NCBI GenBank assembly: GCA_029891385.1
Contig: CM057230.1
Span: forward strand, 19,915,372 to 19,979,371
DNA: 64,000 nt
Origin: Erythroxylum novogranatense
Lineage: Eukaryota > Streptophyta > Magnoliopsida > Malpighiales > Erythroxylaceae
Direction of reading: 5' to 3'
Position numbers and translations under genes: made by a program. The notes under the pieces are model-generated. The model was not told the DNA's origin. It did not search any database and worked only from the letters and a program-made list of their open reading frames with translations. Positions 4,698 to 59,453 of this stretch are shown here, piece after piece (positions within the stretch are counted from its first letter, which is position 1; the number at the start of each line of letters is the position of its first letter).

Positions 4698-7665
4698 TGT
4701 AGCACTTAACTCCCGCATCGACCGAACCCGACATCTACAAAGATATCCGAGCCCGTGACCATGAGGGTGGCATGCTAGAGCGATCAAATACACTTAAAAC
4801 CTCACTATGACATTTTTCTTTCAAAAAGCAGTTGAGTCTTGTGAAAACAATAACATTTTGGGTCTGATTTATTTCAACAACATTTTCAAATACTAAACAC
4901 TTTCAGTCATTAATTAGCACTCAATAGTGCTCAATCGATCACATAAGGTAAAGGCATGACCCTAGTGGGTTCCAATGTCATTTCAACACATTTCAGTAAC
5001 CACAAACACGATACACTTTTACATTTATTACCCTAGGGCCCACTAAATAGAACACTATACTAATGCAGATGTGACGACACTGATCCCAACCCGATACTCT
5101 GCCTTGCTAGCAGCGATCATACTCCCGTTGGTCTAACAGGGTACTCTTCAGTTTCCTGAAAAACAATTGCAATGTTGGGTGAGTTTGCGAACTCAGTGAG
5201 AAACCATCATCGATGGTTCACTCAACTCATGCATATACACAAATCACATTTATTTCACATATTAACAAATTCATAAGTCACATGCATCACACACACTCAA
5301 TGTCACATTAATAAGGCCTTCACCTCTCATTCTATGTATTTCCAATCATTCATACATATATGATGCACATGTGACGCTTTTCACTCTCATTTCGTTGTTG
5401 TGACCGAGCGCATTCAGAAATCAGTAATCACATTTTTGGCAAGTAGGAGAGCCCTCTGGGTATGCACTACTGCCCACTCACATTAGGGATAGGAGAGCCC
5501 TCTGGGTATGCACTAATCCCTTTCACATAATAGGACCCCACACCCCACCCGTAGGTGTTTGCAGGTTTTACTGCGGCGTGTGTTTGCGGGTTTTACCGCG
5601 GCATCCTCAAATATTCAGTGGCGTCTCGGTCCACAACTATCATTAAATCTGATCATTTAACTATGCATGAATGCATATGTTCACTATCCATTTTTCAGTC
5701 ATTTCACATTATACAGTCATATCTCCTTTCTTCGGACCTTTAGTCTGGTATTGCGATTATATGCATTTACTATCATTTACACTGAGGCATTTATGCACTC
5801 ATAAACACTTATTCACATTAACACTTCAATCTCACATTTTCAGTATTTCGAACACCCATGGTCCGAAATCAATCAAAAGCAATCACATATATCCATCCTT
5901 AACTCCACATGGCATCTGTGCAATAAATTAAACACATATAGGTTGAGAAACCAACTAGGTTACTCACCTGTACTTCCGAGCTACAGCCTGGAAGTCTCAG
6001 CACTGCCCGTGGAATTGCTCCATCGGTGCCTCTATACCAATCAAATAAATCTCATATTACCAATTATACCAATTTCAATGATCAATAAACATATTTAACA
6101 AATGCGATAAATACTATACATGTTATGACATTTCCGATCCTATTCCCGAGTATTCCCAATTCAATTCTCTTTCCTCTGACCAATAGCAATTCCTAATACC
6201 ATGATTCAATTTACAAATTTCATATTCTAAAGTCACATTTCGATTGAAATCACATTCACTATTCATTGCCACTCGATTATGATAATCCTCGATTAAATTC
6301 CAAATTCTCATCTTATCAATTCCAAATTCTCGCCTCTACTTTCTAATTAATTTCTAAGGAACCAATTCATTTGAAATCAAACCTCCAACACATTACTTGT
6401 AACAATCACCTTAAAATCACTTAATTTCATTTCTTCTAATTGCAATTCCAGGTCTCGAAATTCAATTGATTCAATAACCAAACTTATAAGAAATGAATCC
6501 TCAAAATTTCCAATTAAAATAAACCATTTCTCTTGATTCACGTGACCTCGCCACATTTAATCCACATACTAACCTCTCGCCACAAGCGTAAAATCCTCTG
6601 CTCGTCATGCGTATAAATTAAATTATTTCCTTATCGTCGCGACGCATCGTTGGGTTGGCTCGCCACAAGCGTGGTCATCACATCGTCACAAGTCATGATC
6701 GCAGAATCGCGATAGAAACCAGAAATTTCTCGATCTTCGGTTTAAATCCATCCAAAACACTACAGATTACTCCCAATCAACTACATATACTACACTCCAC
6801 TCATTTCTAACCTTAAATCCATCAGATAACCATTATTCATTAAAAACCCAAATCAAAATCAACGTTTTTCTCAAAACCTAACTTCCGTAACTTTCAATCT
6901 CTCTAAACAATTTCATAACTCAATCAATGATCAAATTAAACGATTCAAGGCATAAAGAAGAAGAAGCTTACTTTATTCTAGCTTTAAATCTTTAAAAATT
7001 CCTCAAGAATCTCCAAAATCAAGCTATCTTCACCCACGGCACAACTCCCTTTTCTTTGAAAACAAAGGAAAACCGTCGATGACGATTTTCAAAGGTTTTA
7101 ACTTATATATATACAAAGAGACTTAGGGCTTGTTTGGCAATTTAATTGCCACAAGTCCAAATCTGAACCACCTCAATCCAATTTCTGATTCTAATTTCTC
7201 CCGATTCGCAATAACAATTAAATAATAAATCCTAAAGTCATAACTCAAAATGTCTCGTATCAATTGCCAATCAATCACGGACCCGAAATCTAATTTATCA
7301 CTCATTATATCATTTTTCCGTCCGACTCGATTCTCTAAAATTTCCAAGAAAGTTCCTATAATTTCACAAAATTAGGAATTACATATTCCTACACTCAAAT
7401 TTCAATTTCCAATATTCGAAAACCAGTTTCATTTCTAATTCCATTTTCAAAACCTCATTTATACACTTATCACACAATTTCCAATTTTTCACAATTCAAT
7501 CGGGAAATGTCATACATGTACGATATTCATATGTTTATGTCATAAATAATCATGTATTGATGAGTACAGAAATTATAATGCATGCACAATTCACATTAGC
7601 TTTATTTTAACTCGACCCGATCCATTTTACAGATATACCCGTTACTTCGATAACGGGATGTTACA
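4698..7665 (-). repeat. A2 3' LTR
   Basis: Pairs with 10899-13864. It contains the ATCGAT-centred palindrome at 5204-5220, a TATA-type run near 7105-7115 (read on the - strand) and the degraded counterpart of the CG-rich block at about 6549-6715. Many differences from the other copy have CAG or CTG in one copy where the other has CG. Confidence 0.88.
6549..6715 (-). repeat. CG-palindrome block, A2 3' LTR copy
   Basis: Counterpart of 12740-12905. Where the 5' LTR reads CGCCGCGGCG or CGTCGCGGCG this copy reads CGCCACAAGCG or CGTCATGCG, so most palindromes are lost here. Confidence 0.6.
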
Positions 7666-10898: not shown

Positions 10899-13864
10899 TG
10901 TAGCACCCCAACTCCCGCACGACCCGAACCCGACATCTACAGTGATATCCGAGCCCGTGACCCTCGAGGGTGGCATGCTAGAGTAGTCAAATACACTTAA
11001 AACCTCACTATGACATTTTCTTTCAAAAATAGTTGAGTCTTGAAACAATAACATTTTGGGCCGATTTATTTCAACAACATTTTTCAAATACTAAACACTT
11101 TCAGTCATTAATTAGCACTCAATAGTGCTCAATCAGTGCATAAGCAGAAAGGCATGACCCTAGTGGGTTCCAATGCCATTTCTGAACACATTTCAGTAAC
11201 CACAAACACGATACACTTTTACATTTATTACCCTAGGGCCCACTAAATAGAACACTATACTAATGCAGATGTGACGACACTGATCCCAACCCGATACTCT
11301 GCCTTGCTAGCAGCGATCATACTCCCGTTGGTCTAACGGGTACTCTTCATTTCTGAAAACAATTGCAATGTTGGGTGAGTTTATAAACTCAAAGGAGAAA
11401 CCATCATCGATGGTTCACTCAACTCATGCATATACACAAATCACATTTATTTCACATATTAACAAATTCATAAGTCACATGCGTCACACACACTCAATGT
11501 CACATTAATAAGGCCTTCACCTCTCATTCTATGTATTTCCAATCATTCATACATATATGATGCACATGTGACGCTTTTCACTCTCATTTCGTTGTTGTGA
11601 CCGAGCGCATTTAGAAATCAGTAATCACATTTTTGGCAAGTAGGAGAGCCCTCTGGGTATGCACTACTGCCCACTCACATTAGGGATAGGAGAGCCCTCT
11701 GGGTATGCACTAATCCTTTCACATAATAGGACCCCACACCCCACCCGTAGGTGTTTGCGAGTTTTTATCACGGCGTGTGTTCAGGGTTTTACCGGCATCC
11801 TCAAATATTCAAGTATGTCTCGGTCCACAACTATCATTAAATATGATCATTTAACTATGCATGAATGCATATGTTCACTATCCATTTTCAGTCATTTCAC
11901 ATTATACTACCATATCTCCTTTCTTCGACCTTTAGTCCGGTATTGCGATTATATGCATTTACTATCATTTACACCGAGGCATTTATGCACTCATAAACAC
12001 TTATTCACATTAACACTTCAATCTCACATTTTCAGTATTTGAACACCCATGGTCCAAATCAATCAAAAGCAATCACATATATCCATCCTTAACTCCACAT
12101 GGCATCTCATGCGAATAAATTAAACACATATAGGTTGAGAAACCAACTAGGTTACTCACCTGAACTTCCGAGCTACAGCCTGGAAGTCTCAGCACTGCCC
12201 GTGGAATTGCTCCATCGGTGCCTCTATACCAATCAAATAAATCTCATATTACCAATTATACCAATTTCAATGATCAATAAACATATTTAACAAATGCGAT
12301 AAATACTATACATGTTATGACATTTCCGATCCTATTCCCGAGTATTCCCAATTCAATTCTCTTTCCTCTGACCAATAGCAATTCCTAATACCATGATTCA
12401 ATTTACAAATTTCATATTCTAAAGTCACATTTCGATTGAAATCACATTCACTATTCATTGCCACTCGATTCTGATAATCCTCTGATTAAATTCCAAATTC
12501 TCATCTTATCAATTCCAAATTCTCAGTCTCTACTTTCTAATTAATTTCTAAGGAACCAATTCATTTGAAATCAAACCTCCAACACATTACTTGTAACAAT
12601 CACCTTAAAATCACTTAATTTCATTTCTTCTAATTGCAATTCCCAGTCTCAGAAATTCAATTGATTCAATAACCAAACTTATAAGAAATGAATCCTCAAA
12701 ATTTCCAATTAAAATAAACCATTTCTCTTCGGATTCACGTGACCTCGCCGCGACGAATCCACACATGCTAGCCTCTCGCCGCGGCGTAAAATCCTCTGCT
12801 CGTCGCGGCGTATAAATTAAATTATTTCCTTATCGTCGCGACGTGCACGCTGGGTTGGCTCGCCGCGGCGTGTTCATCACACGTCGCGGCGTGCGATCGC
12901 AGAATCGCGATAGAAACCCAGAAATTTCTCAGATCTTCTGGTTTAAATCCATCCAAAACACTACAGATTACTCCCAATCAACTACATATACTACACTCCA
13001 CTCATTTCTAACCTTAAATCCATCAGATAACCATTATTCATTAAAAACCCAAATCAAAATCAACGTTTTTCTCAAAACCTAACTTCCGTAACTTTCAATC
13101 TCTCTAAACAATTTCATAACTCAATCAATGATCAAATTAAACGATTCAAGGCATAAAGAAGAAGAAGCTTACTTGATTCTAGCTTTAAATCTTCAAAAAT
13201 TCCTCAAGAATCTCCAAAATCAAGCTATCTTCACCCACTAACAACTCCCTTTCTTTGAAAACAAAGGAAAACCGTCGATGATGGCGATTTTCAAAGGTTT
13301 TAACTTATATATATACAAAGAGACTTAGGGCTTGTTTGGCAATTTAATTGCCACAAGTCCAAATCAACCACCTCAATCCAATTTCGATTCTAATTTCTCC
13401 CGATTCGCAATAACAATTAAATAATAAATCCTAAAGTCATAACTCAAAATGTCTCAGATCAATTGCCAATCAATCACGGACGAAATCTAATTTATCACCA
13501 TTATATCATTTTTCCGGTCCGGACTCGATTCTCTAAAATTTCCAAGAAAGTTCCTATAATTTCACAAAATTAGGAATTACATATTCCTACACTCAAATTT
13601 CAATTTCCAATATTCGAAAACCAGTTTCATTTCTAATTCCATTTTCAAAACCTCATTTATACACTTATCACACAATTTCCAATTTTTCACAATTCAATCG
13701 GGAAATGTCATACATGTACGTATATTCATATGTTTATGTCATAAATAATCATGTACTGATGAGTACAGAAATTATAATGCATGCACAATTCACATTAGCC
13801 TGTACTTAACCTGACACGATCCATTTTACAGATATACCCGTTACTTCGATAACGGGATGTTACA
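10899..13864 (-). repeat. A2 5' LTR
   Basis: TGTAGCACC... to ...GATGTTACA on the + strand. It contains the promoter and leader in - orientation, with a TATATATA run at about 13303-13312 and the CG-palindrome block at 12740-12905 some 400-560 bp downstream of it. Confidence 0.9.
12740..12905 (-). repeat. CG-palindrome block, A2 5' LTR copy
   Basis: Dense CCGCGG and TCGCGA palindromes within CGCCGCGGCG, CGTCGCGACG and CGTCGCGGCG, in otherwise AT-rich DNA. It lies in the transcribed part of the LTR, downstream of the probable TATA box. Confidence 0.8.
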
Positions 13865-16538: not shown

Positions 16539-16727
16539 GTGCCAGGTCAATTAATGAATAAGGAATGACCCATAAGCCCCTCCATTTAAGCCTATAAACT
16601 TAACCCTTTAAGTAAACTTCCAAAATTGCCCCTTCATTGGTCTTTAAAATTGACATCTTGTCTGATTATTTCGATCAGGTAAATGAAGTCATTTGATAAA
16701 AATTTCTTCTAAATAAATGTTCCTCTA

Positions 16728-17340
16728 TGTCTTACGAATCCATCGCTTCAAGAATCGGATCGATCGGAGCTCTATAGCTCAAGATATCTCCAAAATACTG
16801 AAGTTTGTTCTTCAGACCCGAGGCTCAACACTACACCTAACTTCCGACCCATATTTGAAAGTCTTAGAGGCTCCATTGTCAATTGGCTCCTTCATAACTT
16901 TTGTAGCCTCATCTCTCTAGTTTAATTAGAAACAAGAATGAACTGAATCCGAGCTCTAGAGATCGAGATATCTCCAAAATACTGAACACTACTCAGCCAT
17001 TATAACACCGGGACTGAACACTATACTGAACTTCCGACCTATATTTGGAAGTCTTAAAGGCTACATTATAGCTCGGATCCTTCATAACATTTGTAGCCCC
17101 ATGTCTCTATTTTCATTAACAACAAGAATCAACTCAATCCGAGCTCTAGTGATCGATATATAGCCAAAATACTGAACATATTTCAGTCCTTACAACACCA
17201 AGACTGAACATTACACTGAACTTACGACCTATATTTGAAAGTCTTAGAGGCTACATTATAGCTCGACTCCTTCATAACATTTGTAGCCTAATCTCTCTAT
17301 TTTAATTTCCAACAAGAATCATATTGATCGGATGTCGGAA
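16728..17340 (+). repeat. 190-bp degenerate repeats left of the GGTCGG block
   Basis: The anchor CTTCCGACCYATATTTGRAA occurs at 16841, 17031 and 17221, exactly 190 bp apart. Each unit also has TTCATAACATTTGTAGCC and CCGAGCTCTAGNGATCGA. Read on the + strand the units follow the order TTCAT...TTGTAG...GATCGGA...GTTATG, ending toward the GGTCGG block. The 5' LTR copy is at about 22810-23430. Confidence 0.85.
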
Positions 17341-17411
17341 GAAGAAGTTATGCTCAAAAGAGTGAAGGGAGGTCAGAGCTCAGCCAGAAAATCAAAGCTC
17401 GGCCAGAACGA

Positions 17412-17575
17412 AGATCGGTCGGTCATCAGAGGTCGGTCGGCCAACAGAGGTCGGTCGGCCATCAGAGGTCGGTCGGCCATCAGAGGTCGGTTCGGTCATC
17501 AGAGGTCGGTCGGCCAACAGAGGTCGGCTCAGCCATCAGAGGTCGGTCGGCCAACAGAGGTCGGTCAGCACCCAA
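17412..17575 (-). repeat. GGTCGG/GGCC minisatellite in A1 3' LTR
   Basis: About eight units of 18-19 bp of the form GGTCGGTCGGCCAACAGA or GGCCATCAGA. Because 18 is a multiple of three, the array reads as an open RGRSAN/RGRSAI frame on the + strand, antisense to the element. That looks like a by-product of the period, not a gene. Confidence 0.9.
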
Positions 17576-17597
17576 TCCGACCTTCAAACTTCAAACC

Positions 17598-22616: not shown

Positions 22617-22624
22617 CTTTTATA
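22617..22624 (-). promoter_or_regulatory. A1 5' LTR TATA box
   Basis: TATAAAAG on the - strand, the promoter copy that would drive the full-length A1 RNA. It is some 880 bp downstream of the GGTCGG array in the direction of transcription, so in A1 that block falls in U3. Confidence 0.7.
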
Positions 22625-23499
22625 GTGCCAGGTCAATTAATGAATAAGAAATGACCCATAAGCCCCTCCATTTAAGCCTATAAACTTAACCCTTTAAGTA
22701 AACTTCCAAAATTGCCCCTTCATTGGTCTTTAAAACTGACATCTTGTCTGATTATTTTGATCAGGTAAATGAAGTCATTTGATAAAAATTTCTTCTAAAG
22801 AAATGTTCCTCTATGTCTTACGAATCCATCGCTTCAAGAATCGGATCGATCGGAGCTCTATAGCTCAAGATATCTCCAAAATACTGAAGTTTGTTCTTCA
22901 GACCCGAGGCTCAACACTACACCTAACTTCCGACCCATATTTGAAAGTCTTAGAGGCTCCATTGTCGATCGGCTCCTTCATAACTTTTGTAGCCTCATCT
23001 CTCTAGTTTAATTAGAAACAAGAATGAACTGAATACGAGCTCCAGAGATCGAGATATCTCCAAAATACTGAACACTGCTCAGCCATTATAACACCGGGAC
23101 TGAACACTATACTGAACTTCCGACCTATATTTGGAAGTCTTAAAGGCTACATTATAGCTCGGCTCCTTCATAAAATTTGTAGCACCATGTCGCTATTTTC
23201 ATTATCAACAATAATCAACTCAATCCGAGCTCTAGTGATCGAGATATAGCCAAAATACTGAACATTGTTCAGTCCTTACAACACCAAGACTGAACACTAT
23301 ACTGAACTTCCGACCTATATTTGAAAGTCTTAGAGGCTACATTATAGCTCGTCTCCTTCATAACATTTGTAGCCTCATCTCTCTAGTTTAATTTCCAACA
23401 AGAATCATATTGATGGGATGTCGGACGAAGAAGTTATGCTCAAAAGAGTGAAGGGAGGTCAGAGCTCGGCCAGAAAATCAAAGCTCAGCCAGAACGAAG

Positions 23500-23672
23500 A
23501 TCGGTCGGCCATCAGAGGTCGGTCGGCCAACAGAGGTCGGCTCGGCCAACAGAGGTCGGTCGGCCATCAGAGGTCGGTCGATCATCAGAGGTCGGGTCGG
23601 CCATCAGAGGTCGGTCGGCCAACAGAGGTCGGCTCGGCCATCAGAGGTCGGTCGGCCAACAGAGGTCGGTCG
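23500..23672 (-). repeat. GGTCGG/GGCC minisatellite in A1 5' LTR
   Basis: About nine units against about eight in the 3' LTR, with different unit order, so the array changed by slippage or gene conversion after insertion. Confidence 0.9.
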
Positions 23673-24857
23673 GCACCCAATCCGACCTTCAAACTTCAAA
23701 CCCTCATAACTTTTGACTCCGAGCTCCAAATTAGACACGGTTTGTTTCGTTGGAAAGATAAAAGACAGATCTACAATTTTCAAGAAGGACTCATAAGCAA
23801 ACTCGGACTCTAAAGGGATCAAAAGTTTACACAAATATGACTGATCGATAATTTCTCAACAGTACAAAAACTTGCAAACATCATAACTTTTGATCTAGAA
23901 CTCCAAATTTGACAAACTTGGTGTCTATGGAAAGGTAAAAGAACCCTCTACAACTTTCATGAAGTCCTTAAGAATCAGATCGAACTCTAAATGGGTCAAA
24001 AACTCTACACAAAGCTGATTGGTCGGTCAGCTTTACACTAAACAGCATCAGAACTTCTAAAAATCATAACTTTCTACTCCTTTGTCTAATATTTTTGTGC
24101 TTTATATCAATGGAAAGATAAAAACATAATCTACCACTTTCATTAAGACCACTTTGGCTAAATCCATCTAAATCAATACAGATTTGCCATAGAAGTCTCT
24201 AAGCACCATTCCAACACATAAACTTCTCATATCAACACATCAACTTCACATATTCACCCACTACCGCAAACTCTTCAACTAATTCATCTCAAACACAATT
24301 CAACTCTCCAATAAACTATTCCAAAGTCATTTCCCCATATCAAACTCAACACCAAAGGATATGCGCATACACATTTCTCTTTCACAAAAGTCATACACAA
24401 TCTTACTCTTAATAACATTTTTCAAATCAAGTAAAATACACTTAACTTTCAAAGATCATAACTTTCAATCCTGATATCGAAAAATAACGTACTTTATGGC
24501 TACGAAAAGCTCTCAACATAATCTATAAATTTCATGTAGATCATTTTCTCAAAATCTGCCTAAATCAAAAGTCAACTCTTTACTCCAAAAAGTCAAACTT
24601 TTCAAATTTTCTTCAAAACATAACACTTTCACCAATCATTTCTTGCTTTTCAACTCCCATTTCAATCAACTAATTCATTTTAACTTTCATAACTCATACA
24701 ACTCTACTCAAATTTCAAAGTCATCAAAACCAATCACTTCATTTCTCATCAATCTCCTTTAAATACAATAACATCTACAACATAATACCTATACAAACAC
24801 ACTCATTAAATTCCATTTTAATAATTCTAATTTCCATCAAAAGATCGAGGTCCAACA

Positions 24858-30515: not shown

Positions 30516-32834
30516 TGTTGGACCCCGAATCCTTTTTCTTCCTGATGTCATTAAGCATGAATTGTATTAATTATGTGTTTATGCCTTAGTTTGATTGAAA
30601 TTGAGAGTGTTAGTGGATAATTAAGGTTTATTTGTAGTTTAAATAGGAATTAAAGGATAAAAGTTTATGAGGGCATTTCGGGAAGATTGCTTAAGTTGGA
30701 TAGGTTAAAGCTTTGCTAGGAGGGGTATTTTGGTCTTTGACCATCCTATTTAAACTTAAGTAGGAAATTAGAAGGAGAAGAGAAAGAAAGAAGAAGAGGA
30801 AAGAAGGAGAGTGTCGTGGGTGAAGAAGAAAAAGAGAAGAGAAATAGGGCTTTGTGATTCTTAAGTTCTTCGACAGATTGGAACTAGTTTTCAGGTAAGT
30901 TTTGCTTCGTTTAATCTTGTTGTGGTTGGTTTAAACCTAAAGATAGGTTGAATGTGTGAGAATCGGTGGTTTAGGGTTTTAAAGGAAAAATGGATAGATT
31001 TCTATGGGTTGATGATTTTGTGTTTGTTTTCAGTTGTAAATGGGTTAGAAATGTATTCTAAGACTTGAATCAAGGTTTAGGTGTGTTGCATTTGTGTTTG
31101 GGGAAGGATTGAAGTTGAAAACGCAGGAACTCGGGTTTGGAGTCGTTCTCCAAGCCCGCACGTCGCGACGTCTTGATGAACACACGCGTGACGTCATGAC
31201 GTGTAGTTTTTATTCGTCGCGACGTGTAATAAAGAGTTCGTCGCGACGTGTAATATTTTTATTCGTCGCGACGTGCGGGGAAGAGTTCGTCGCGACGTGT
31301 AATATTTTTATTCATCTCGATATGCGGGGAAGGGTTCATCGCGACGTGCAAACCGGTGTTCGTCGCGACGTGCAAGAAGGGTGCACGCCGCGGTGCACAT
31401 TTGCGTTCGCCGCGACGAGCGGGGCTTCTCCGCGGCGAGCCCTCTGTTTCCTGCAGCGAGGAATTTTAGTCTTTTGGGCATATCTTGGGCTGTAGATGTC
31501 CAATTGAGGTGATTTTAGATTTGTTATGATCTAGAGATTAAGGGCTACAAGTTTTATGAAGAAGGGAAGTTTGGAATTTGCCTCTTAGGGTTTAGGAATT
31601 TTAGATGGAAGTCGAATGTAGACTTTTAACGCTAGTACTTTTACTTTTTGAGCTTCTTGAATATTTCTTTTGAATGTTAATTGAATGGGAACTTGGTTTA
31701 TTATAGGAAACCAAGCCGACCTGATCCAATCGCAAGAGGAAGGACAACAGTGAGTCAGATACTCAAGCGATATTAGGTGGGTAATATATTTATGGTTGTT
31801 GTGTGTATGGGCAATATGTGTATGCTTGCTTGCATGTGTGGACACTGTTTGTGTTGAATTATAAGAAATATTGAACATGCATTGGGATCATGATTATGTA
31901 CGGCCTTGATAGGCCTTATGGCATTTTGCAAGAATGGAAAGAATGAAAAGTATGAAAGCTTTGATAAAACGCTTCAAGCATGAATTTGATTTGTTATGTG
32001 CTTTTTTTGGGTGACAGAGTAACGGATGGATAGTCACGTGCACGTCGACGTATAACCTTCTCCCGGCTGCCCGCTTGAGGCCACGAGATCCTTGAGAAAT
32101 CGGACTCGAATAGTTTACGGTATAAACTTCAGTTTATCCAAATCATTTTATGAAACTCTCGAACCATTTATTGTGCATTACATAATTGATTTGTTAGAAA
32201 TGATGCATCATAATTGTGATGTTGTGAAGCAGGAATTGCATGACATATTCTTTTGATGGTTATATGAATGTGAATCAATTGTGAAGTGTTGACTTGCTAT
32301 GCTTATATATATACATATGCTTGAATGTGTGGCGCGTTGCCAATGGCTATAAATGTATATGCCACTGAGCTTCGCAGCTCACCCCATTATCTCCCCTCCT
32401 CAGGTGCAGAACGAGACGATCTTTGATCTTACAAGGCATCGAAAACTTCAAGCTAGTTAGGAGCTTTGTATTAAGTTAGTATTTTGGTTGGCCCTCCGAG
32501 CATATCATCATGGAGCATATTCATGTATTTTGGATTTAAACTTTATTTTTGTATTATGCTATTTTGAGAATACTTATTATTTTCCTTCGGGTTGTTATGG
32601 CATGAAGCCCTTGATTTATAGGGTGTTTAATTCATAGCTAGAATGACTGTATGTATGTTATTATGTGTGCAAAAATGCATGTTTAGAATGCATGTGTAGT
32701 ATGTATGAGTATATGTTTGTGTGAATCGAACTTATGTATGGATGTTAGGATCGGGTCCGAAGTTTGGGACGCTCGTCGCTGCCACTGCCCGAGGGGCCAC
32801 CTTGGGAATAGGGATCCGGAATCCGGGCCCAACA
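30516..32834 (+). repeat. Gypsy-1 3' LTR
   Basis: About 2319 bp from TGTTGGACCCCGAATCC to GAATCCGGGCCCAACA, with matching inverted ends. A TATTTAAA-type box is near 30748. An AAGAAGAGGAAAGAAGGAG purine-rich leader follows, then a CGTCGCGACG block (31157-31440). A conserved late-LTR stretch ends in CCCCTCCTCAGGTGCAG near 32390-32405. Segments near 32035-32150 correspond in reverse to A1 LTR sequence near 14290-14415. The right end rests on the inverted terminus only. Confidence 0.8.
31157..31440 (+). repeat. CGTCGCGACG palindrome block in Gypsy-1 LTR
   Basis: CGTCGCGACGTG or a one-step variant recurs about seven times, with spacers such as TAATATTTTTATT and CGGGGAAGAGTT, then grades into CCGCGG forms. 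Palindromic TCGCGA is the core. It lies about 400 bp downstream of the probable TATA box, in the leader. Confidence 0.9.
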
Positions 32835-35510: not shown

Positions 35511-35763
35511 TGTAACATCTCATCACAGATCGGAAGGGTAAAATGGTAATTTGGATTGGGTTACGAGTGTGTAAACGTATCTCGGCATGGTCATGCCTAA
35601 TATGGCCTCCATATATGCATAAATTGTAATTTTTGTATAGGCACATGATTGTACATGCATTCATGACATTTCCTGACATATTTGTTATTGTGAGAAACAT
35701 ATGAATTAGTGCTTGAAAATCAAATTGGAGTGGATTTTTGTGTGTTTTTCATTTTTGTGGAAT

Positions 35764-35938
35764 TTAAAAAAAAATTGGAAATTTTTCGGGATACCTTTCC
35801 GGATTGGAAAATTTACAAGTGACAGACTGATTTATTTTCGGTACCGAAAGTCAAAAAAAAATTGGAAATTTTTTGGGATACCTTTCCGGATTGGAAAATT
35901 TACAAGTGACAGACTGATTTATTTTCGGTACCGAAAAT
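35764..35938 (+). repeat. 87-bp tandem duplication in B
   Basis: Two copies, stepping 87 bp (TTGGAAATTTT at 35775 and 35862), differ by about one base. Each carries CTTTCCGGATTGGAAAATTT and ends with CGGTACCGAAA, itself a palindrome around GGTACC. Confidence 0.9.
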
Positions 35939-36074
35939 GACTGTCCAATGACACTGAAAAATTAGATACATGATTTTAGGATTTATTACTTTGAGTCATT
36001 AGAATTTGGAGAGAAATTAGAATAGAAATTAAATTGGAATTGGAAATGAAATAAATGGATGTTTAAGAAAAAGA

Positions 36075-36146
36075 CAAGTGACAAGTGACACTTGTCACTT
36101 GCCTACTTGGTGTCTTAGTGTCTTAGACTTGGTGGCTTTATAAATA
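36075..36146 (+). promoter_or_regulatory. B promoter: perfect palindrome upstream of TATA box
   Basis: CAAGTGACAAGTG at 36075-36087 is followed by one A and its exact reverse complement (36089-36101). TATAAATA is at 36139-36146, some 38 bp downstream. CACTTG/CAAGTG half-sites are spaced like a paired factor-binding site. Confidence 0.75.
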
Positions 36147-37109
36147 TCTTAAGTTTAGCAAGTCATGCACGACACTTCCATGTTGGAATAAGTGAAAAGT
36201 GATTTTTAGAGAGCTTTCTTCTTCTCATTCGAAACCTTCTCCTACCTACTTCTTCGTGGATCCTCTTCTCCCTTGCTTCTTTTGTAACTTTTTCTCATCT
36301 TTCCTACCTTCCTTTACTTGGCTTTCTCTTCTTTTTAGTTCACTAAAAAGGCTAACATTAGTTCACTTAAAAGGCTAACATTAAACCTCACCCTCTTGAG
36401 AAGTTGATGATCGTATATGGTGAGTGAGAGTTAGGAAATTTGGGATAAGTTGGAAGCTTGGAAGATTTGAAGCTTAATTAGGTAAGCTTTGAGTTTTATG
36501 TCTTGTTTGTTGTTAATTGCATTTATTGTGCTTATTGGTTCATTAATTTCATGAAGTTTGTGTATTGATTGTTTGGGTCTAAGTGTATGCTTGTGTGAGG
36601 GTAAGTGACATGGTAATTAAAGAATGTGAATTTAGTGTTTTCAATGAAGGTTATGATGTTAGATGAGTGGAAATGAAGTAAGAAAATTATGTATGTTGTG
36701 TGCTGCCAAATTGTGATTAATTACTCAATTAATTGTCTTGATGAATTTGTGGCTGAATTCTTGGCTAAATGGGATGTTTATTGAGGTGGTATTGATGTTT
36801 GCATGAAAGGAGTAGAATTTGGTATGAAATCTAGAAAATGGAACTTGTGCATGTTTCAGGTATTTGTTTATAACTTTTGATGTAGTTATGATTTTGAGTT
36901 GAGGTTTAGTTTAAATTAAACTTGAGAAGTATGGCTAGAATTCCTATGAAGGAAGTTTTGTCCAATTGTGGCTTAAAGAGCTTTGAACTTTGCTTGGAAG
37001 TTGAGATATGTGTGCTGGATATATAGTATCCGGATTTTGGTTCCATTATTGAAGACCTGAAACTTTGAGAATTTTTCTAGGAGAAAGGAGACAGATTTTG
37101 TGAAATTTG

Positions 37110-37985
37110 TCTTCATGAAAGTTGAATATTTACTTGTTATATTTCTAACGCCACTAAGTATGATATTTTTCGATATGTCGATTGAAAGTTATGGTCTGTT
37201 AATGTTCAGGTGGTCATTCAGCTGAAAATATGTTTTGAGTGCAAATAGCTCTAAATGTATAGGTTTTGTGCTTTTTGTGTTCTGATGTTAATTGTGGATT
37301 GTTAGGAGTGAAATTGGTTCAAGTGCTCTTCTGTAAAGTTGTAGAGGATTGTTGTAGCTTTCTAATGAGGTATTATATGCGAATTTTGGATGTAAGAATT
37401 GTTAGATATAAATTTGTAAAGTTTGGCTATGGTTTAGGTCATATGTTGTTTTAACACTTCTGAACAGGGCAGCCACCTTAATGGGTGAATTTGACCTAGT
37501 TAGAATTGTAATTTGGTTTTAAGTCCTTCATGAGAATTATAGCTTGTGTTCTTCTCTTTTCAGTGATACCAAGCTTGAAATTTTTCGAAAATGGGATAGG
37601 AAGTTATGAATTTTGGAAGATTGTGTTACTGTTGAGACTCATTTAGGTAGGCAAAAACTTTACTTGAGAAGTTGATTAGTTTAGAGATGGAATTGGCTTC
37701 CATGTTGTTCATGAAAGTTGTAGCTTTTGTTTTTCTCTTTTGATTGATATAAAATTTGGAATTTTTGGCAAAGGTAATGAAAAGATATGATTTTTGTAAC
37801 AGTGTTGTACTGTTATGGTAAATGTATGATTAGGCAGTCACTTTGATTGCATTTTTGACACCCTTAGAGGTGAACTTGGTTTATGAGCTCTTCTTGAAAC
37901 TTGTAGGATATTTCAAGATCTTTCCAATGAGACCAAAATTTGTGATTTTTGGATGTGTGTGATAAAAGTTGTGTAGTGTGGAAGA
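37110..37985 (+). repeat. B leader array of five degenerate units, 180-205 bp period
   Basis: Units start near 37116, 37318, 37525, 37705 and 37885. Each has TTCATGAAAGTTGTAGC or a variant, then CTTTYYAATGA, AATTTTTGGA and AAGTTATG. Linkers share GGCAGYCACYTTRAT and TGTTACTGTT-like text. Divergence is high, so the array is old or fast-evolving. Confidence 0.75.
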
Positions 37986-38049
37986 AAGGAGAGTTGGTTT
38001 TGTGAAAAATAGAAAATTGATTTTGAAAAATGGATTTTTTAAAAAAATT

Positions 38050-38140
38050 GAAATTTGGGGCGGAAGCTCGCCCCTCGCCCTCGCGAGGAGGCGAATTGGC
38101 TCGCCTCGCGAGGGCGATGCCTCGCCCTCGCGAGGCATTT
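38050..38140 (+). repeat. CCTCGCGAGG palindrome block in B
   Basis: CTCGCGAG, a TCGCGA-centred palindrome, occurs three times within CGCCCTCGCGAGGAGGCG, GGCTCGCCTCGCGAGGGCG and CGCCCTCGCGAGGC, which also pair with each other. An (AT)n run at about 38148-38164 follows. The block sits directly after the last leader unit. Confidence 0.85.
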
Positions 38141-38204
38141 TGGTTTATATATATATATATTATTTGCTTAATTTTGGATTTATGCCTTCTTTTGGGAATT
38201 ATTT

Positions 38205-38260
38205 CTTCATCTGAAGTCCGATTGACCTGATTCTCGAGGCATCGGATTTGTATAATATTT
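38205..38260 (-). repeat. Inverted module right of the B block
   Basis: On the - strand it reads AATCCGATGCCTCGAGAATC and then AGGTCAATCGGACTTCAGAT, nearly the same as 50021-50065 in element D on the + strand. It faces the forward units on the other side of the CG block. Confidence 0.75.
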
Positions 38261-39625
38261 AATTTCATTTATTTGTGAAATTGAGAATTTTTAGAGCTGA
38301 AATTGACAGAAATTGGTTAGGTCGAAGTGAGGGGATCGGGTAATGATTTTTTCAATCCGTCTTTTATTTATTATTGGACCTATAAAGGTCTAAATCGAGT
38401 GTTTTTAGTGTCAATGGGTTTCTAATTTTTAGAAGAACACTTTGTGATGGGAAATTTGGATATAATGCCGGAAATGTCACGAACATGCATTGTACACATT
38501 TTAATTTCTACATGTGCATTATTAAATATTTTTGTAACACCCAAATACCTCCTGGGAGGATACATGGATGCCACCCAAGACAGCACAAACAAATCAAAAC
38601 TTTTTACACATGCATTTTCAAAAACTAAACGTAACACACATATAATACATCTCATAATTTCATAAACAAATTCAAAGAATATTTACAGGCCCAAACAAAC
38701 CAAACAAAATACATTTTCACGCGACACAAAACTCAGACTCTTTTGGTGACTGCGGATGACTTGTCCCAGTCCTTAATCTCTTCGCTCTGAACCTACACGG
38801 GGCAAATCCACCGTGCTAAGCATATAGCTTAGTGATTAATAACTAATCTATATTAACTGATTTCAGTAAACAGAAAGAATGCATTTCAGAACATATTTTT
38901 ATACTAAGCGAGCAGACGAACACGGAGATCCTTGAGCGAATATAATTTAGTTTATGTCAGAATCAAACAGATATCAGAATACAAAACAAATCAAACTATA
39001 AATCCATAAACAGAAGTGGGTAACGAGACTTATACAGGAGATACCATAATTAGTATCAGCAGGAGAGACATATGTCTCGATATCAGGAGACACCAAGGTG
39101 TTAAATAACAGGAGCAGCTGCAGACCCTTCTAGGCATGCCTATTTACCCACAACTAGGACTTAACAGTTTTACAACAGAACAAGATCATTTCAGACATTT
39201 CACGTGCAAGCAAATAGCACTTCCAATAAATCAATCCTAGACATCATCTAGGTTGACTCAAAAAATTTATCATAAAAAAATTACTTACCTAAAGTACTTA
39301 CTGAAATTTTCTACCTATATTACGACCAAATTATTGACCAGACACTTACCAAAGCGCCTTCTTGTTTATTGCCTCGAAGTCCCAGCAATATCCAGCAGTG
39401 GTCGTTCCTCTATAATAGGGAACACAGATACAAATCACTATTGTGCATGATTAAAAATTCACTAATGTATGATGGATATGTAGGATGCATGTTCATGACA
39501 AATTTCGGGACCAAACCCTAAATTCTTAACTTTATTCCATAATTCACAACTTAAATTATTAAATCCTTGATTGTTAATTAAATCTGAAAATTTACAAATT
39601 TCACATAGAGAGGTAGAAAACTTTC

Positions 39626-39700
39626 TTACGAATCCAACGCTTCAAGAATCAGGTCATTCGGAGGTCGGATGACAAAGATATGGTCAAAAGAGTGAAGATT
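39626..39700 (+). repeat. Module left of the GTCGAC array in C
   Basis: ACGAATCCAACGCTTCAAGA, GGTCATTCGGAGGTCGGATG and GGTCAAAAGAGTGAAG in order, matching 16736-16790 plus 17330-17370 in A1 and 50018-50080 in D. It points toward the adjacent palindrome array. Confidence 0.7.
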
Positions 39701-39727
39701 GCGGATTGGGATTTCAAAGATTGTAGT

Positions 39728-39945
39728 TTATCACACACAAGTCGACTTATACTTACACAAGTCGACTTATCCATTAAAGCACACATAAGTCGACTTATAC
39801 TTACACAAGTCGACTTACATAACACCACAAGTCGACTTACACTTGCATAACTCGACGTATTGAAGAGCGGAGATGACATTTTCATGCAAAACGTTGATCT
39901 AAGTCAACTGATACACCACAACAAGTCGACTTATAACACTGTTCA
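39728..39945 (-). repeat. AAGTCGACTT palindrome array, C 3' LTR copy
   Basis: ACACAAGTCGACTTATACTT and shorter forms recur about eight times; AAGTCGACTT is a perfect 10-bp palindrome. The spacing is irregular, about 18-30 bp. The matching array in the 5' LTR is 57975-58185. It lies downstream of the probable TATA box, in the leader. Confidence 0.9.
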
Positions 39946-41203: not shown

Positions 41204-41239
41204 ACTCTTCCCTCCTTAAGAAATTTCGTCCTCGAAATT
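41204..41239 (-). promoter_or_regulatory. C polypurine tract and stem-loop
   Basis: CTTAAGGAGGGAAGAGT on the - strand abuts the LTR start TGTAACGCCCC. Positions 41222-41239 form AATTTCG / CGAAATT with an AGGA loop, overlapping the end of pol (NFEDEIS). Confidence 0.85.
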
Positions 41240-41346
41240 CATACCTGATCCGAATAATTGCGGATTCTGGGCCTTCATGATTTCCTCTGGTTCCCAGGTT
41301 GTTTCCTCAAGTCCATGGTGTTGCCAGAGGACTTTTAACACCACAC
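41216..41346 (-). pseudogene. C chromodomain, severed from integrase by D
   Basis: On the - strand VLKVLWQHHGLEETTWEPEE and IMKAQNPQLFGSGMNFEDEIS are the chromodomain C-terminal half and the end of pol. The preceding residues come from D, so the join at 41346/41347 is the insertion edge. The rest of C's integrase starts near 52310. About 70-80 bp of C seem lost at the far side. Confidence 0.85.
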
Positions 41347-48426: not shown

Positions 48427-50139
48427 CCTAAATGTAACACCCACCCGTAAGACCGAACCCGATATCGTTGGTGATATTCGAGTCCGTGTCCCGAGTGGGC
48501 GTACTACATCGATCGATTTCAAATTCCGTAAACATTTTTTTCTTGTAGCCATTAACTCCACGTTCACCACGGCGGACGATAAGTAAATAAAATCCGTGTT
48601 CAATAAAACCAGTTTCGATTATTACGGTCATCGATAGAATAATTACAATTAGTCGATCGGTAAATATTACTACCACAATGGCTTAGTAAAAATACAATGC
48701 CTTGTTATACGGTGATTACGAATACAATTTACTAAAACACTAATGCGTATACTAACCCATCCCAACCTCTAACCTTTACTCGCTCTACGGTAGATATACT
48801 CCGTGTCAACCGGTATTCTTCGAGACCAAAAATAGATGCAAATTTTGGGTGAGTTTTGCGAACTCAAGAAAACCATCATCGATGGTTCACTCAATTCATG
48901 CATGTTCAAACACTTTACCAATTATCACATACGATCACGATTTACAAAGTAATACCAAATAATACGTACAATCACATTTCACAAATGTAAGGCGAATCGC
49001 CTATCATACAATCCACGATTAATCATACCATATATGCAATGCACATGAGACCCTTTCCATTTTCATTATGTTATTGGATCGTATGCTTTGGCCCCAAGAT
49101 AGCGGGCACATTGCGTTGAGCGGTGGCTTCAAACATTGGGCTTGAAGCCACGATACATTAAGCCCGAGGCTCAATACGTTGGACCCGAGGTCTGTGCGTT
49201 GGTGAAAGCTCTCACATCGTTAGGCGGATATGCCCCGACGCATGGTTGCTCGATCACAATTGCCTTTATCGATCATGTCCTTATGCATGAATGCATATGT
49301 TCCAATTTCCATTTACAGATTATTGCTATCACTTACATTCAATGCCATTTCCCATTTCTCGGACCTTGGTCCGATATTTCAATCATATATTTTTTCCAAT
49401 TTATTGCGTCATACCATATCGCATTTACGGTACATCACATGTATCGAGGCAGGATAATTAACACTTCGATATCAATCCTATTTCCTCGGACCTTTGGTCA
49501 AGATCTCAATATAAACATTCCTGACAGATCACACAAGTAGCACTTCGTTATCTCGTTTCCAATATTTGAGACACCTATAGTCGAAATCAATCAAAGTCAA
49601 ACACACATATATCCATCCATTATCTCCATATGGCATAATCGCGAAATATTAAACACATAAAAAAATTGAGAAACCATCTAAGTTACTCACCTATTGCTTC
49701 CGAGCTAATGGAAAACCTCATGACGTCGGTCAATCGACGCTCAATTGGACCTCTATATGAATCGAAAAAGAAATCAGTCACTAAATATGAAATTTGTGCT
49801 CATGATGCTGAGATATGCATGTTCATGAATTCGGTCCTAACTCAATATTTTCCCATAATAAAATTCTATGAAAAATTAGAAATCCATAAGCGGCCGACGG
49901 TGCAATTCGGACCTATAGGTCCCCAATTAAATAAGCAGTGTTTACAAGTTCCGTCGATAGGCTACGTCAAATTCCGCCTAAAATTCCCATTTTTCATAAT
50001 ATGAAATTAAATATTCAACGAATCCGATGCCTCTAGAATCAGGTCAATCGGACGTCGGACGGAAAGAAATTGACAAAAGAACAATTGTACCATTTAATAC
50101 CAAATAAAATTTTAAAAAACAAAAAATAAACATTTTCAT

Positions 50140-50345
50140 AAATGCGCTGGGCGAGACGCCGCCCTCATGGCGATTTCACCTCACTGCGTCGCGAGGCGCC
50201 GCCTCGCGACCAGCCTCTTAAATCTCGCCACGCGCGCAGCGTCGCCTCGCGAGGCTGAATCACCTCGTTTAAATCGCGAGGCGAGGCGCGCCTCGCGACC
50301 GCTCGATATCTCGCCCTCGTGAGTAAACTTCGCCGCGAGGCGGCT
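50140..50345 (-). repeat. CG-palindrome block in D
   Basis: GC-rich island in AT-rich DNA, with CGTCGCGAGGCGCCGCCTCG, GCGAGGCGAGGCGCGCCTCG and CGCCTCGCGAGGC-type inverted repeats, many able to pair with each other. It closely resembles the B block in motif use. Confidence 0.85.
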
Positions 50346-50389
50346 CCTTCGCTTGCCTATTTTTTCCAGATTTATAACTTAATTTCCAT

Positions 50390-51260: not shown

Positions 51261-52309
51261 ATAAACAAAACTCAGATGTCATGGTTGCGGTTACTGTTCA
51301 TAGGCAATGGAACAGTAACTTTCCATGCAAAATTTCACCCTTCTATCATTGGAATTCAACAACACCCATTTCACACTAAATTGAAGCCAACATCCCAAAG
51401 TTTCAGTAGCAACTGACCTTACCTCATTTACATTTCTACACTATGAGTTATGGTCAAATCAGTGCAATAGGTCAAATATCAATTTTCCAGCTTTACTTCT
51501 CTATTCACTTCCTTTCATTCCAACACCCTTCCTACATCCATAAGCATCTTAATTGGACACAAAATCAGTCCCTATATCATGTCTACATTCACTAGGCATT
51601 CCTACCAAAATTGGCAGCACTAACCTCTTCCTTTCCATGCACAATTAATCATCAATATGAATTCAAAATCAAGCTAAAGCCAAACTTAACCATTACCATT
51701 CTTTATCCTTACATACCTTACATTTATACCCATTAATTTATACTATACTTCTCATCAAAATAAAGCATCAATAAACTTAATAATAATACCATAATCCCTT
51801 TAAATGCTTCTAACTACCATGATGTATTAACTACAAAATCAAGCATAATTAAACACTTAACTTAAAACTTTACCTATTTAAAACTTCCAATCTTCAATCC
51901 TTTACTATCTCACCAACACCTTCTTCACTCTCTTGAAACACATGCAAGTGGGGAGGTGTCACTTTTCTCGCTACTATGGAAATTGGCCTTCATCATATGA
52001 CAAATCTGTTTTAAAAATAAATGATAGATCTAAAATTGTAAAATTGCGTGTAGATTGCACTCAAATAATTTTCAAACAAAATCACCTTTTCTAACACAAA
52101 AACACGTTTAGGCGATTATCGTGATTTTGCGGTCAGGAAATTTTCTCGGAAAATTCCAGAAAAATTCCTATAAATCCCAAAAATGTAAAACCATTTATGG
52201 TGCAGTCAAACAATTTCCAAACTCAATTATCCCATTAATTCCAATAAAATTGCTTTAGGCCCAATTCACAGAATGTCATGAATGCATTCCAAACAATTTT
52301 CCAAACTCA

Positions 52310-56781: not shown

Positions 56782-59453
56782 TGTAACACCCAAATACCCC
56801 CTGGGAGGATACATGGATGCCACCCAAGACAGCACAAACAGATCAAAACGTTTCACACATGCATTTTTAAAAACTAAACGTAACACACATATAATACATC
56901 TCATAATTTCAGAAACAAATCCAAAGAATATTTACAGGCCCAAACAAACCAAACAAAATACATTTTCAGCGACACAAAACTCGCACTTTTTGGCCACCGC
57001 AGATGACTTGTCCCGATCCTTAATCTCTTCACTCGAACTCACACGGGCAAATCCACCATGCTAAGCATATAGCTTAGTGAGTAATAACTAATCTATATTA
57101 ACTCGATTTCAAGAAATGTAAAGAATGCATTTCGAATGATTTTTATACTAAATGTAATCTACGTAACACGTGAGATCCTTCGAGGTAATATAATTTAGTT
57201 TATGTCGAATCAAATGTATATCGTAATACAAAACAAATCAAACTATAAATCCATGAACAAAAGTGGGTAACTAGACTTATACAGAGATACCATAATTAGT
57301 ATCAAAGTGGGTAGAGACATATGTCTCGATATCGAGAGACACAAGGTGTCAAATAACGAGAGCAATTGCAGACCCTTCTAGGCATGCCTATTTACCCACA
57401 ACTAGACTTATGAGCTTTACAATGTATCAAGGTCATTTCGGACATTTCATGTGCAGGGCAAATAGCACTTCCAATAAATCAATCCTAGACATCATCTAGG
57501 TTGACTCGTAAAATTTATCATAAAAAATTACTTACCTAAAGTACTTACTGAAATTTTCTACCTATATTACGACCGAAATTATCGACCAGATTATTTACCA
57601 AAATTGCCCTTACTGCTTATCGCCTCAAGTCCCAAATATCCGGCGAGGGTCGCTCCTCTATAATAGGGAACACAGATATTAATCACTATTGTGCATGATT
57701 AAAATTTACTAATGTATGATGGATATGTAGGATGCATGTTCATGACAAATTCCAGGACCAAACCCTAAATTCTTAACTTTATTCCATAATTCACAACTTA
57801 AATTATTAAATCCTTGATTGTTAATTAAATCTGAAAATTTACAAATTTCACATAGAGAGGTAGAAAATTTTCTTACGAATCCAACGCTTCGAGAATCAGG
57901 TCATTCGGAGGTCGGATGACAAAGATATGGTCAAAAGAGTGAAGATTGCGGATTGGGATTTCAAAGATTGCAGTTTATCACACACAAGTTGACTTATACT
58001 TACACAAGTCGACTTATCCATTAAAGCACACACAAGTCGACTTATACTTACACAAGTCGACTTACATAACACCACAAGTCGACTTACACTTACATAACTC
58101 GACTTATTGAAGAGCGGAGATGACATTTTCATGCAAAACGCGTTGATCTAAGTCGATCGATACACCACAACAAGTCGACTTTATAACACTGCTCATCGCC
58201 TTCTTCACCAAACCATACGAAACAGCAGACTTTTCTTCCATTTTTCTTTAACTTCTTCACTTCAAAACTCATCTATCTATCATTTCTATACTATTAGAAT
58301 CATCTATACACTCCAAAGATCACAACACTAACATTCCAACTTTCTCTCTCTACTACAGACACTTTCAAAATCCTTATTATTACACTTTCTTTCATTTTCT
58401 TTATCTATTCTTACACTTCATGTACCCCATCCCAATATCAAACCTCACCAACCAATTCAGAAATAATTTTGAACTTCAAACATCATTTAAAAACAAATAT
58501 TCACTTTCTCACACTACTGCGTTTCTTTCAAATATAACTTTTCCAAACTTTTCATACTCTTTCTCTCTTGTTATTCCCAACTTAAACACTTCTTACACTT
58601 ATTACTATCACACCACTGAATCACTCCTTACACAGATCATGCCTATGTATATATATTTATAGCAAGAACAGAGTGTGATTTTACAACGTAGGAAAACAGA
58701 GCATATCCCAAACCATATATCTATATATTTATATAATCTTTAAACCAAGCATGCAAAATAATTTAACAACATAACTATAGACAGACAGAACCCACATATA
58801 CAACAGAAAAGAGCATCACTGTACAAACCCATGTATATCGATATACACTATAAACATAGCATCGTGACTTACCTGTTTTAGATGATCTTTCCAATAGACT
58901 TGCTACTCGGTGAAGGCGATGAAGTATGAAGAGTATAAATTACAGAAGCTATTTTTAATGAAGAACATCTGACCACGTGTGTCTCATGCACGTCTTATGT
59001 TCAATCCAAATGTTACCATGCATGTAAACCTCTTACCATAATGTCATTCGTCCATTCATTTAATTATTATTATTTTATTAATAAATTATTCTTTTTAAAC
59101 AACCAAATACATTGTTATAATTCGTAAAACAAACAATTACCCAAAATTTCCAGAAAACTTTCGAAAATTCACCAAAATTCTATTATAAAATAATGACTCT
59201 CAAAATAAATTTTCAACTCAAAAATAATTCACCAACAATTTCTAAAACTATTTGAAGTATGCAAAAATTATTAAAATTATATTAATATTGTCCAAACAAT
59301 TCAAAATTTTCATTAAACCAATTTACCCAGAAAATGTCATGAATGCATGCCAAAATATTTATGCACAATTAAGCAAATATTCCATATGCAAATAACAAGC
59401 ATAATTCGTACTAAATTTCGTTAATATTCTAACCCCTAATTTGGGGCGTTACA
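56782..59453 (-). repeat. C 5' LTR
   Basis: TGTAACACCCAAATACC... to ...TTTGGGGCGTTACA. Same order of parts as the 3' LTR: divergent first 700 bp, GTCGAC array 57975-58185, TATA-type run at about 58641-58660 read on the - strand. Confidence 0.92.
57975..58185 (-). repeat. AAGTCGACTT palindrome array, C 5' LTR copy
   Basis: Same array as 39728-39945, with isolated base changes such as AAGTTGACTT in the first unit and no change in unit number that I could see. Confidence 0.88.

Follow-up and report, generated by a model that had tools for sequence, protein, structure and literature searches.

Short palindromic words containing CG have been described from the long terminal repeats (LTRs) of Sireviruses. 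According to the available text of the original paper, these words are element-specific, occur in 8 to 32 repeats per element, are found mainly in the LTR's upper half and form CpG islands (PMC2829016). They differ between elements and are at times nearly identical in distant ones; a TATA box follows the island by 37 bp on average, the boxes have been proposed to be regulatory, and one element, Tnd-1, lacks the CGG-CCG core signature (PMC2829016). In maize, small RNAs are enriched on the Sirevirus palindrome clusters, which are considered cis-regulatory (Bousios 2016, as cited in the available part of PMC10760457). A second related case is found in Del (=Tekay) elements, whose LTRs in monocots carry a 5' CpG island that varies both in length and in sequence, with none in the sampled eudicots (five species), as far as the available text of PMC4029996 goes. 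The strings 'palindrom' and 'inverted repeat' are absent from the main text of that paper on Del LTRs, and a study of Beta vulgaris chromoviruses (PMC3605345) uses 'palindrom', CpG and tandem nowhere in its main text. Here we analyze a 64-kb stretch of contig CM057230.1 from the eudicot Erythroxylum novogranatense (the window), in which nested LTR retrotransposons carry blocks of short CG words beside a conserved sequence module.

An earlier note on this DNA had proposed that the LTRs of several families each enclose a hypervariable CG-palindrome core between inward-facing copies of one module, and had suggested a functional RNA or chromatin element in which the palindrome acts as a self-recognition tag. 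Our analysis retained the arrangement in large part and pointed to a different role. We consider it probable, though far from firmly so, that block and module together form a cis-regulatory cassette (promoter/enhancer) that acts at the level of DNA in LTRs of Tekay/Del-kind Ty3/gypsy chromoviruses of a eudicot, a reading drawn from sequence comparison.

A conserved island at a similar distance from unlike blocks

Six families are distinguished here as A, B, C, D, L37 and Gypsy-1. This naming is our own and not that of the earlier note, whose stretch of interest (37110..38260) falls in L37. The suffixes 1 and 2 denote the left and right LTR copies of the same family (A1/A2, B1/B2, C1/C2, D1/D2). 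Module copies upstream of a block are called F and those downstream R; F and R lie in opposite orientation. The sample consisted of one 64-kb window with five informative LTRs, two related pairs among them (D/L37 and A/Gypsy-1).

The five LTRs, anchored at R, were compared in all ten family pairs, each against 60 letter shuffles. Every pair was similar over the first ~55 bp of R (z 5.6-17.8, mean 10.8), whereas mean z was 2.6 in the second half of R, 0.3 in the block and 0.6-0.7 in the other neighbouring 100-bp stretches. Single pairs outside R reached up to z 5.2, mostly the related D-L37. When the C LTR was compared with those of A, D, Gypsy-1 and B, the R region was the sole stretch above threshold. 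The earlier description of alike flanks around a swapped core was borne out by this comparison. The gap from block to R was 50 bp in A1 and A2, 43 bp in C1 and C2, 53 bp in D2, 49 bp in L37 and 27 bp in Gypsy-1; on the other side, the gap from F1, the F copy nearest the block, was 32 bp in A1, 29 bp in A2, 50 bp in D2 and 84 bp in L37.

Near-matches to the module word given in the earlier note form regular arrays. A profile trained on the four upstream copies of A found all five upstream copies of L37 at 23.9-54.6 bits, far above the best of 60 shuffled windows (14.2 bits), so the flanking module is real and not of the kind that shuffled sequence yields. The same profile scored three copies in the right D LTR at 28.9-29.9 bits, and a further two positions there at 6.7 and 4.4 bits; it gave 24.9, 16.3 and 11.9 bits in the left D LTR, the last being lower than the best shuffle. 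R profiles from which families were omitted in turn recovered A at 36.3 bits, C at 50.1 and 48.9 bits, Gypsy-1 at 20.1 bits and L37 at 47.6 bits; with D and L37 omitted jointly, their copies scored 33.6 and 28.8 bits. The best of 60 shuffled windows in these tests was 10.6 (A), 9.0 (C), 9.2 (D with L37) and 8.3 bits (Gypsy-1).

F and R are one module in inverted form, with 19 copies aligning over 83 columns nearly without gaps. Under the R profile, the two F copies of A nearest the block (26.9 and 24.9 bits) outscored all 109,914 other 83-mers outside the masked module regions, and the remaining nine F copies ranked in the top 0.002-0.11%. The highest null scores of this profile (20.1 and 16.4 bits) were outer module copies in L37 and D, and the next null score was 7.7 bits. 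A weak point is that the F profile put the R copies of D and L37 merely in the top 0.3-0.4%. A combined model gave 33 matches of at least 13 bits, all of them in the LTRs of A, C, D, L37 and Gypsy-1, with a best shuffle of 10.2 bits. These comprised the 19 training copies, 11 of their LTR partners and three others, all in D (43190-43277 and the outer copies 43626-43705 and 51379-51458).

R was located downstream of the block in five of the six families, and in three of these (A, D and L37) inverted F copies lay upstream as well, giving the convergent pair that had been proposed. Profile scans of C and Gypsy-1 found no upstream F and only the downstream R, matching the one-sided module described for them earlier. 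In B, the A-trained and combined profiles found the module in neither LTR. F copies were spaced 177-217 bp apart, or 387-392 bp (about twice) where one copy was degenerate, and R copies in the A array ~190 bp apart. D and L37 each have one extra copy upstream of the F array, in R orientation and pointing away from the block. Consequently, the statement that each copy ends toward the block applies to the F/R pairs and not to every module copy.

The module copies of L37 begin with an outer copy in R orientation at 36869..36951 on the plus strand (20.1 bits with the R profile; 8.8 bits with the combined model, less than the best shuffle). It is followed on the minus strand by F copies at 37109-37196, 37515-37609 and 37694-37790 (spacing 181-217 bp), a degenerate F at 37315-37430 (23.9 bits A-trained, 9.1 combined) and F1 at 37880..37973; R lies on the plus strand at 38188..38280 and scored 36.0 bits with the combined model. 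The left LTR of A has four R copies at 16693..17361 on the minus strand, the one adjoining the block at 17258-17361, and plus-strand F copies at 17599-17695, 17775-17868, 17958-18055 and 18349-18446 (spacing 177, 183 and 392 bp). The corresponding positions in its right LTR are 22779..23447 for the four R copies (minus) and 23704..24551 for F (plus). In the right LTR of D, R was found at 49981..50079 (minus), F at 50396-50487, 50751-50847 and 51139-51234 (plus) with a weak copy at 50936-51012 (7.2 bits), and the outer copy, upstream of the F array, at 51379..51458 (minus; 51370-51452 with the R profile; 13.1 bits combined, 16.4 with the R profile). Its left LTR retains F at 43007-43102, 43190-43277 and 43394-43474 (plus) and the outer copy in R orientation at 43626-43705 (minus; 13.0 bits combined). 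R of C lies at 39590..39691 and 57837..57938, both on the minus strand, and R of Gypsy-1 at 31470..31568 on the plus strand.

The left LTR of D lacks ~773 bp of the right (49697-50470), with most of the first F, the block and R lost in one deletion, and about 1 bp of microhomology at the deletion junction.

Word blocks

Every block listed in the earlier note was present at its position. The whole window was scanned for clusters of at least three CG palindromes of at least 8 bp with neighbours within 120 bp, and six were found, all inside LTRs (B1, B2, Gypsy-1, L37, C1 and C2) and none outside. The cluster in B1 is the partner LTR of a block already named. Compared with 500 dinucleotide shuffles, palindrome coverage was matched by none in B2, Gypsy-1, C1 and C2, by 7 in B1 and by 14 in L37. 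The palindromes of the D block did not exceed the shuffles (129 of 500 as high), and gapped hairpins exist there. The dyad symmetry of the words was above shuffles in four of the six families (B, Gypsy-1, C and L37).

The L37 block (38058..38138) contains CCTCGCGAGG three times and is 74% GC, and the D block, found in the right LTR only (50133..50345), contains CCTCGCGAGG-related words with hairpins at 64% GC. The Gypsy-1 block (31157..31442) has six copies of CGTCGCGACG plus variants and an observed/expected CpG ratio of 2.18. The right-LTR block of B (12733..12914) is made of CGCCGCGGCG and CGTCGCGACG words with the module on neither side, and its left-LTR block (6536..6715) is a decayed copy. 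The blocks of C (39735..39935 in the left LTR, 57982..58184 in the right) are built on AAGTCGACTT, with six copies and 38% GC in the left one, so the GC-richness ascribed to all blocks does not hold for C. The left-LTR block of A (17412..17566) consists of ~18-bp tandem units with GGTCGGTCGGCC, which are non-palindromic, and the right-LTR block (23498..23674) of the same units.

Four word classes occur among the six families: A, C, D with L37 (CCTCGCGAGG), and B with Gypsy-1 (CGTCGCGACG, plus CGCCGCGGCG in B). This contradicts the proposal of one word per family. When the Gypsy-1 LTR was compared with B in 110-bp windows, the threshold was passed solely over the Gypsy-1 block. The words of A and B contain CGG or CCG, and those of C and of D and L37 are without this signature. 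Word halves covaried among the distinct units of B2 and Gypsy-1, with 20 of 27 outer pairs complementary against 13.0 expected when halves were re-dealt (p 0.006).

Blocks occupy differing positions within the LTR (A 22-25%, B 32-38%, C 48-55%, D 50-56%). Between the two LTRs of A, the block had 3.4% mismatches against 2.1% in the rest, plus one 19-column gap; in C the values were 3.4% against 6.0%, and in B 14.1% against 3.4%, with 26 mismatches in 184 columns, 21 of them transitions. The term hypervariable is thus apt between families and for the two LTRs of B, and not clearly so between the LTRs of A or C. The B block contains 17 CpGs in the left LTR and 30 in the right, and its divergence is four times that of the LTR rest.

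The window has 23 CpG-rich runs, of which 7 lie over blocks, 8 elsewhere in LTRs and 8 outside LTRs. With 16 of 23 elsewhere, such runs are not in themselves specific to blocks. They cover the blocks of A1, A2, B2, D2 and Gypsy-1, are shorter in L37 and are absent from those of C1, C2 and B1.

A common stress-factor site was also considered. The motif RCCGAC/GTCGGY, which we take to be the DRE/CRT core, occurs 14 and 15 times in the left and right blocks of A and in none of the other seven block copies. Its confinement to A speaks against one factor common to all blocks, and the candidate was rejected.

Predicted transcripts and RNA structure

RNAalifold on the 19 module copies returned no pairs and no consensus fold. 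A four-pair module helix named by hand was discarded, with 52.8% of cells paired against 46.4% expected and 41 of 500 shuffles as high. The window has no Rfam match at gathering score and no tRNA gene; five sub-threshold Rfam matches in 37000-38320 were all far below their cut-offs.

In A, the cassette extends from F copies at an offset of ~0.3 kb to the R array at up to ~2.1 kb of the LTR, and the best TATA-plus-exon-plus-splice-site prediction follows it at offsets 2234-2488. The block lies ~0.9 kb and the R array ~0.16 kb before this predicted TATA and exon, which places the block outside the leader of that transcript. The order is reversed in Gypsy-1, B and L37, where the block comes after a TATA-like box, an exon-like stretch and a strong 5' splice site (TATTTAAA in Gypsy-1, judged by eye). 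Because the position of the cassette relative to the predicted TATA and exon varies, an enhancer fits better than a leader RNA signal.

The row of TATA-like box, exon-like stretch and 5' splice site was observed at 30745-30895 (Gypsy-1), 36139-36482 (L37), 13172-13330 (B) and 22370-22625 (A), and is a hint of a spliced leader inside the LTR, as judged from predicted signals. The exon-like stretch is GA-rich in A and Gypsy-1, which share a similarity score of 59 against 45 for the best of 200 shuffles, and B and L37 match across the predicted splice site with 63 against 46. Among the 15 family pairs, the promoter stretches of 2 were more similar than in any of 200 shuffles, and those of the other 13 were not. 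Exon-2-like stretches exceeded all shuffles in 3 of 15 pairs, those of B, D and L37, which have in common an exon-like stretch ending before GTGAGT(A/G)AC.

Elements in the window

Self-comparison, primer binding sites and flanks showed the window to be composed of nested LTR retrotransposons. Target-site duplications and LTR ends were judged by eye. The listed LTRs make up 57.7% of the window, with the end of the Gypsy-1 LTR assumed. The LTR copies of A, recognised by self-comparison, lie on the minus strand at 13865-18752 (plus 4091-4700) and 19358-24857; they are ~5.5 kb long with only ~0.6 kb between them, are bounded by the duplication TGTTA and are interrupted by B. The ~3.0-kb LTRs of B (4698-7667 and 10899-13866, minus) have the duplication ATATA. 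C (38533-41204 and 56782-59454, minus; ~2.67-kb LTRs, duplication ATTTT) is inserted into the LTR of the plus-strand L37, which spans about 35511-38527 and resumes after C at about 59455-60839; the limits used in computations were 35513 and 60838. D (41336-44930 and 48432-52289, minus) is located between the LTRs of C, and the 3' LTR of Gypsy-1 begins at 30516 on the plus strand.

Coding domains were linked to Gypsy-1, and to none of A, B, D and L37. Gypsy-1 follows the gypsy order, with reverse transcriptase (RT) and RNase H ahead of an integrase zinc domain, SH3_Tf2-1 and a Chromo match below the cut-off (3e-4, 21.1 bits against 25.1); SH3_Tf2-1 and RVP_2 matches also occur in pieces between the LTRs of C. 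A, B and C have an iMet primer site. From these features we infer that the elements may be chromoviruses of the Tekay/Del kind. Matches to the RT fragment included proteins of Tanacetum, Gossypium, Theobroma and Cucumis, among the 120 of 7993 matches listed. Proteins labelled bacterial (bacterium c-19 and Parablautia muri) also matched the RT fragment at 72% identity among the matches listed, and probably represent plant DNA contaminating bacterial assemblies.

Several other features were noted. A (4091-24857) is apparently non-autonomous; its LTR start TGTTGGACC and one further stretch are common to Gypsy-1, a possible helper. The LTRs of A contain AT-rich tandem repeats with 62- to 64-bp and ~40-bp units (15132-15676 and 21222-21522). 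Directly 5' of the Gypsy-1 reverse transcriptase lies an 80-bp GC-rich tandem repeat of 9.5 copies (26945-27703).

Search for relatives

One match to the module pattern among viral contigs and six among genome contigs were tried as relatives. The F model gave no E below 0.065 at these seven loci and the R model none at E of 1 or less, and with such weak scores the matches were taken as chance. No viral contig was confirmed with an RT query, and a distant blastn search of plasmids with the Gypsy-1 R region gave no match. Protein searches aimed at plant frames over other LTRs, with the frames that run antisense to the cassettes of L37 and C as queries, gave none at E of 1 or less. Module and word strings sought in literature text led to no retrotransposon paper by title.

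Discussion

A module kept in sequence and in rough distance, next to dyad words that change and in both orientations, points to recognition as double-stranded DNA. The cis-regulatory reading would explain this as follows. Proteins that bind DNA as dimers (in A perhaps as monomers) would recognise the words and activate the LTR. The module would be the fixed part, serving as core promoter, start-site region or site for a co-factor, and its distance to the words would be important. Words may turn over through local tandem amplification and replacement while the module is retained, each LTR lineage becoming tuned to its own factor or escaping silencing aimed at the old words. The inverted upstream copies could serve as further DNA-binding or nucleosome-spacing units. 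The other option of the earlier note, a chromatin or DNA element, may apply.

Several observations weigh against this reading. The blocks of A1 and A2 contain no palindrome of at least 8 bp, and the word halves of D2 and L37 showed no significant covariation (23 of 36, 18.9 expected, p 0.08). With both A and Gypsy-1 omitted from the R profile, A still scored 34.1 bits and Gypsy-1 just 9.4 (best shuffle 9.9). A TATA-like run between block and R is clear in L37 only (38146..38160, plus strand), with a weak TTTAAA in D; none was found in the 140 bp that follow the block of A1, A2, C1, C2 and Gypsy-1, B has TATAAAT in its block on the antisense strand only, and the TATA-plus-exon predictions of A, Gypsy-1, B and L37 sit elsewhere in the LTR. 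Block RNAs also folded more strongly than shuffles in eight of nine copies on both strands (z -3.5 to -8.5), as did the whole cassettes of A, D and L37 (z -2.3 to -5.0), with the inverted modules pairing in A.

This last observation would be expected if the blocks were mainly hot spots of host silencing, with transcribed palindromes forming hairpins that yield small RNAs and methylation, and word change as the escape. An excess of small RNAs on the palindrome clusters of maize Sireviruses, in the available part of PMC10760457, points the same way, as does the predominance of transitions between B1 and B2, which CpG methylation would produce. However, repeated self-complementary words and inverted copies give strong folds by construction, and silencing leaves the conserved module and its similar distance unexplained. 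As the main role of the blocks we regard it as unlikely, and it is compatible with a promoter, the two not being exclusive. Slightly less credible still is a neutral mosaic, in which the module would be a relic of an old common LTR and the blocks and arrays functionless local tandem expansions. Such a history agrees with further local tandem repeats that these LTRs contain (in A, units of 62 bp and 190 bp), with another LTR stretch common to A and Gypsy-1 and likewise one to B, D and L37, with the absence of the module from B, with the loss of block and R from one D LTR, perhaps after insertion, and with the far weaker conservation of the second half of R. Uniform decay, however, should not leave a ~55-bp island in all ten pairs; nor does it account for a similar gap to blocks of differing sequence or for the covarying word halves of B2 and Gypsy-1.

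Retroviral RNAs dimerise through a single palindrome that sits in a hairpin loop of the leader of the genomic RNA. The self-recognition tag of the earlier note would likewise make the palindromes kissing-loop dimerisation signals in leader RNA, and we judge it very improbable. The palindromic words do differ between groups, the predicted folds are strong, and the block follows the predicted TATA and exon in Gypsy-1, B and L37, so that it could there be part of the leader. Nevertheless, different families have words in common (B with Gypsy-1, D with L37), A is without a palindrome, each block has several word copies and not one loop, and the module occurs in both orientations. The missing module fold, together with the position of the A cassette before the best TATA and exon prediction, makes a role in leader RNA unlikely.

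A more specific form of the cis-regulatory cassette is a two-way promoter, which we put forward as a speculative and rather doubtful proposal. The block of CG words would be a shared activating centre from which outward-read 83-bp modules start transcription on both sides, sense into the element and antisense toward the LTR start; lineages would swap words as a plug-in, and antisense transcripts would supply or adjust the small-RNA control of the element. If the cis-regulatory cassette is real, an abundant class of plant retrotransposons would have a defined, testable promoter unit made of a conserved ~55-bp island and a swappable word array. It would raise the questions of which host factor reads each word, whether word change allows escape from silencing and why the module is present in both orientations. 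It would further indicate that CpG-rich word blocks can occur in Del/Tekay-like LTRs of eudicots, in five species of which no CpG island was reported for these LTRs.

Comparison with known systems

Word arrays as such are of a known kind. The earlier note knew of no description of this arrangement; CG boxes in Sirevirus LTRs (available text of PMC2829016) and the variable CpG island of Del/Tekay (available text of PMC4029996) are precedents for part of it. The ~55-bp island, the inverted upstream arrays of the module and CpG blocks in eudicot Tekay/Del-like LTRs were not found described in our searches of open-licence papers.

The retroviral dimerisation signal resembles the blocks in being a short palindrome in a non-coding region. 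It differs in that the window has word arrays, flanks in both orientations, no module fold and, in A, a position outside the predicted leader.

With Del/Tekay, the kind of element appears to be the same by inference only, the chromodomain of Gypsy-1 being below the cut-off, and the LTRs are long. By eye, GGG occupies positions -8 to -10 at the LTR ends in B, C, D and L37, which corresponds to U5 type A in the available text of PMC4029996. That text reports no CpG island in eudicots, whereas these eudicot elements have CpG-rich word blocks and a conserved module; the C block, in contrast to such an island, is not GC-rich. As regards variability, the blocks are unlike between families while R is alike, and between the LTRs of one element the difference is clear in B only.

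Sirevirus boxes resemble the blocks of the window in their short CG words, which in the window are palindromic above shuffles in four of the six families, and the Vitis word CGGTCGACCG is built in the same way (available text of PMC2829016). Their hosts are Ty1/copia elements, whereas those in the window are Ty3/gypsy with a sub-threshold chromodomain in Gypsy-1. The boxes have a CGG-CCG signature, which the words of C, D and L37 lack; word copy number in the window is mostly lower, and a TATA box after the block is clear in L37 alone. Finally, the available text of PMC2829016 mentions no conserved or inverted flanking module, whereas in the window a module lies beside the block in five of the six families.

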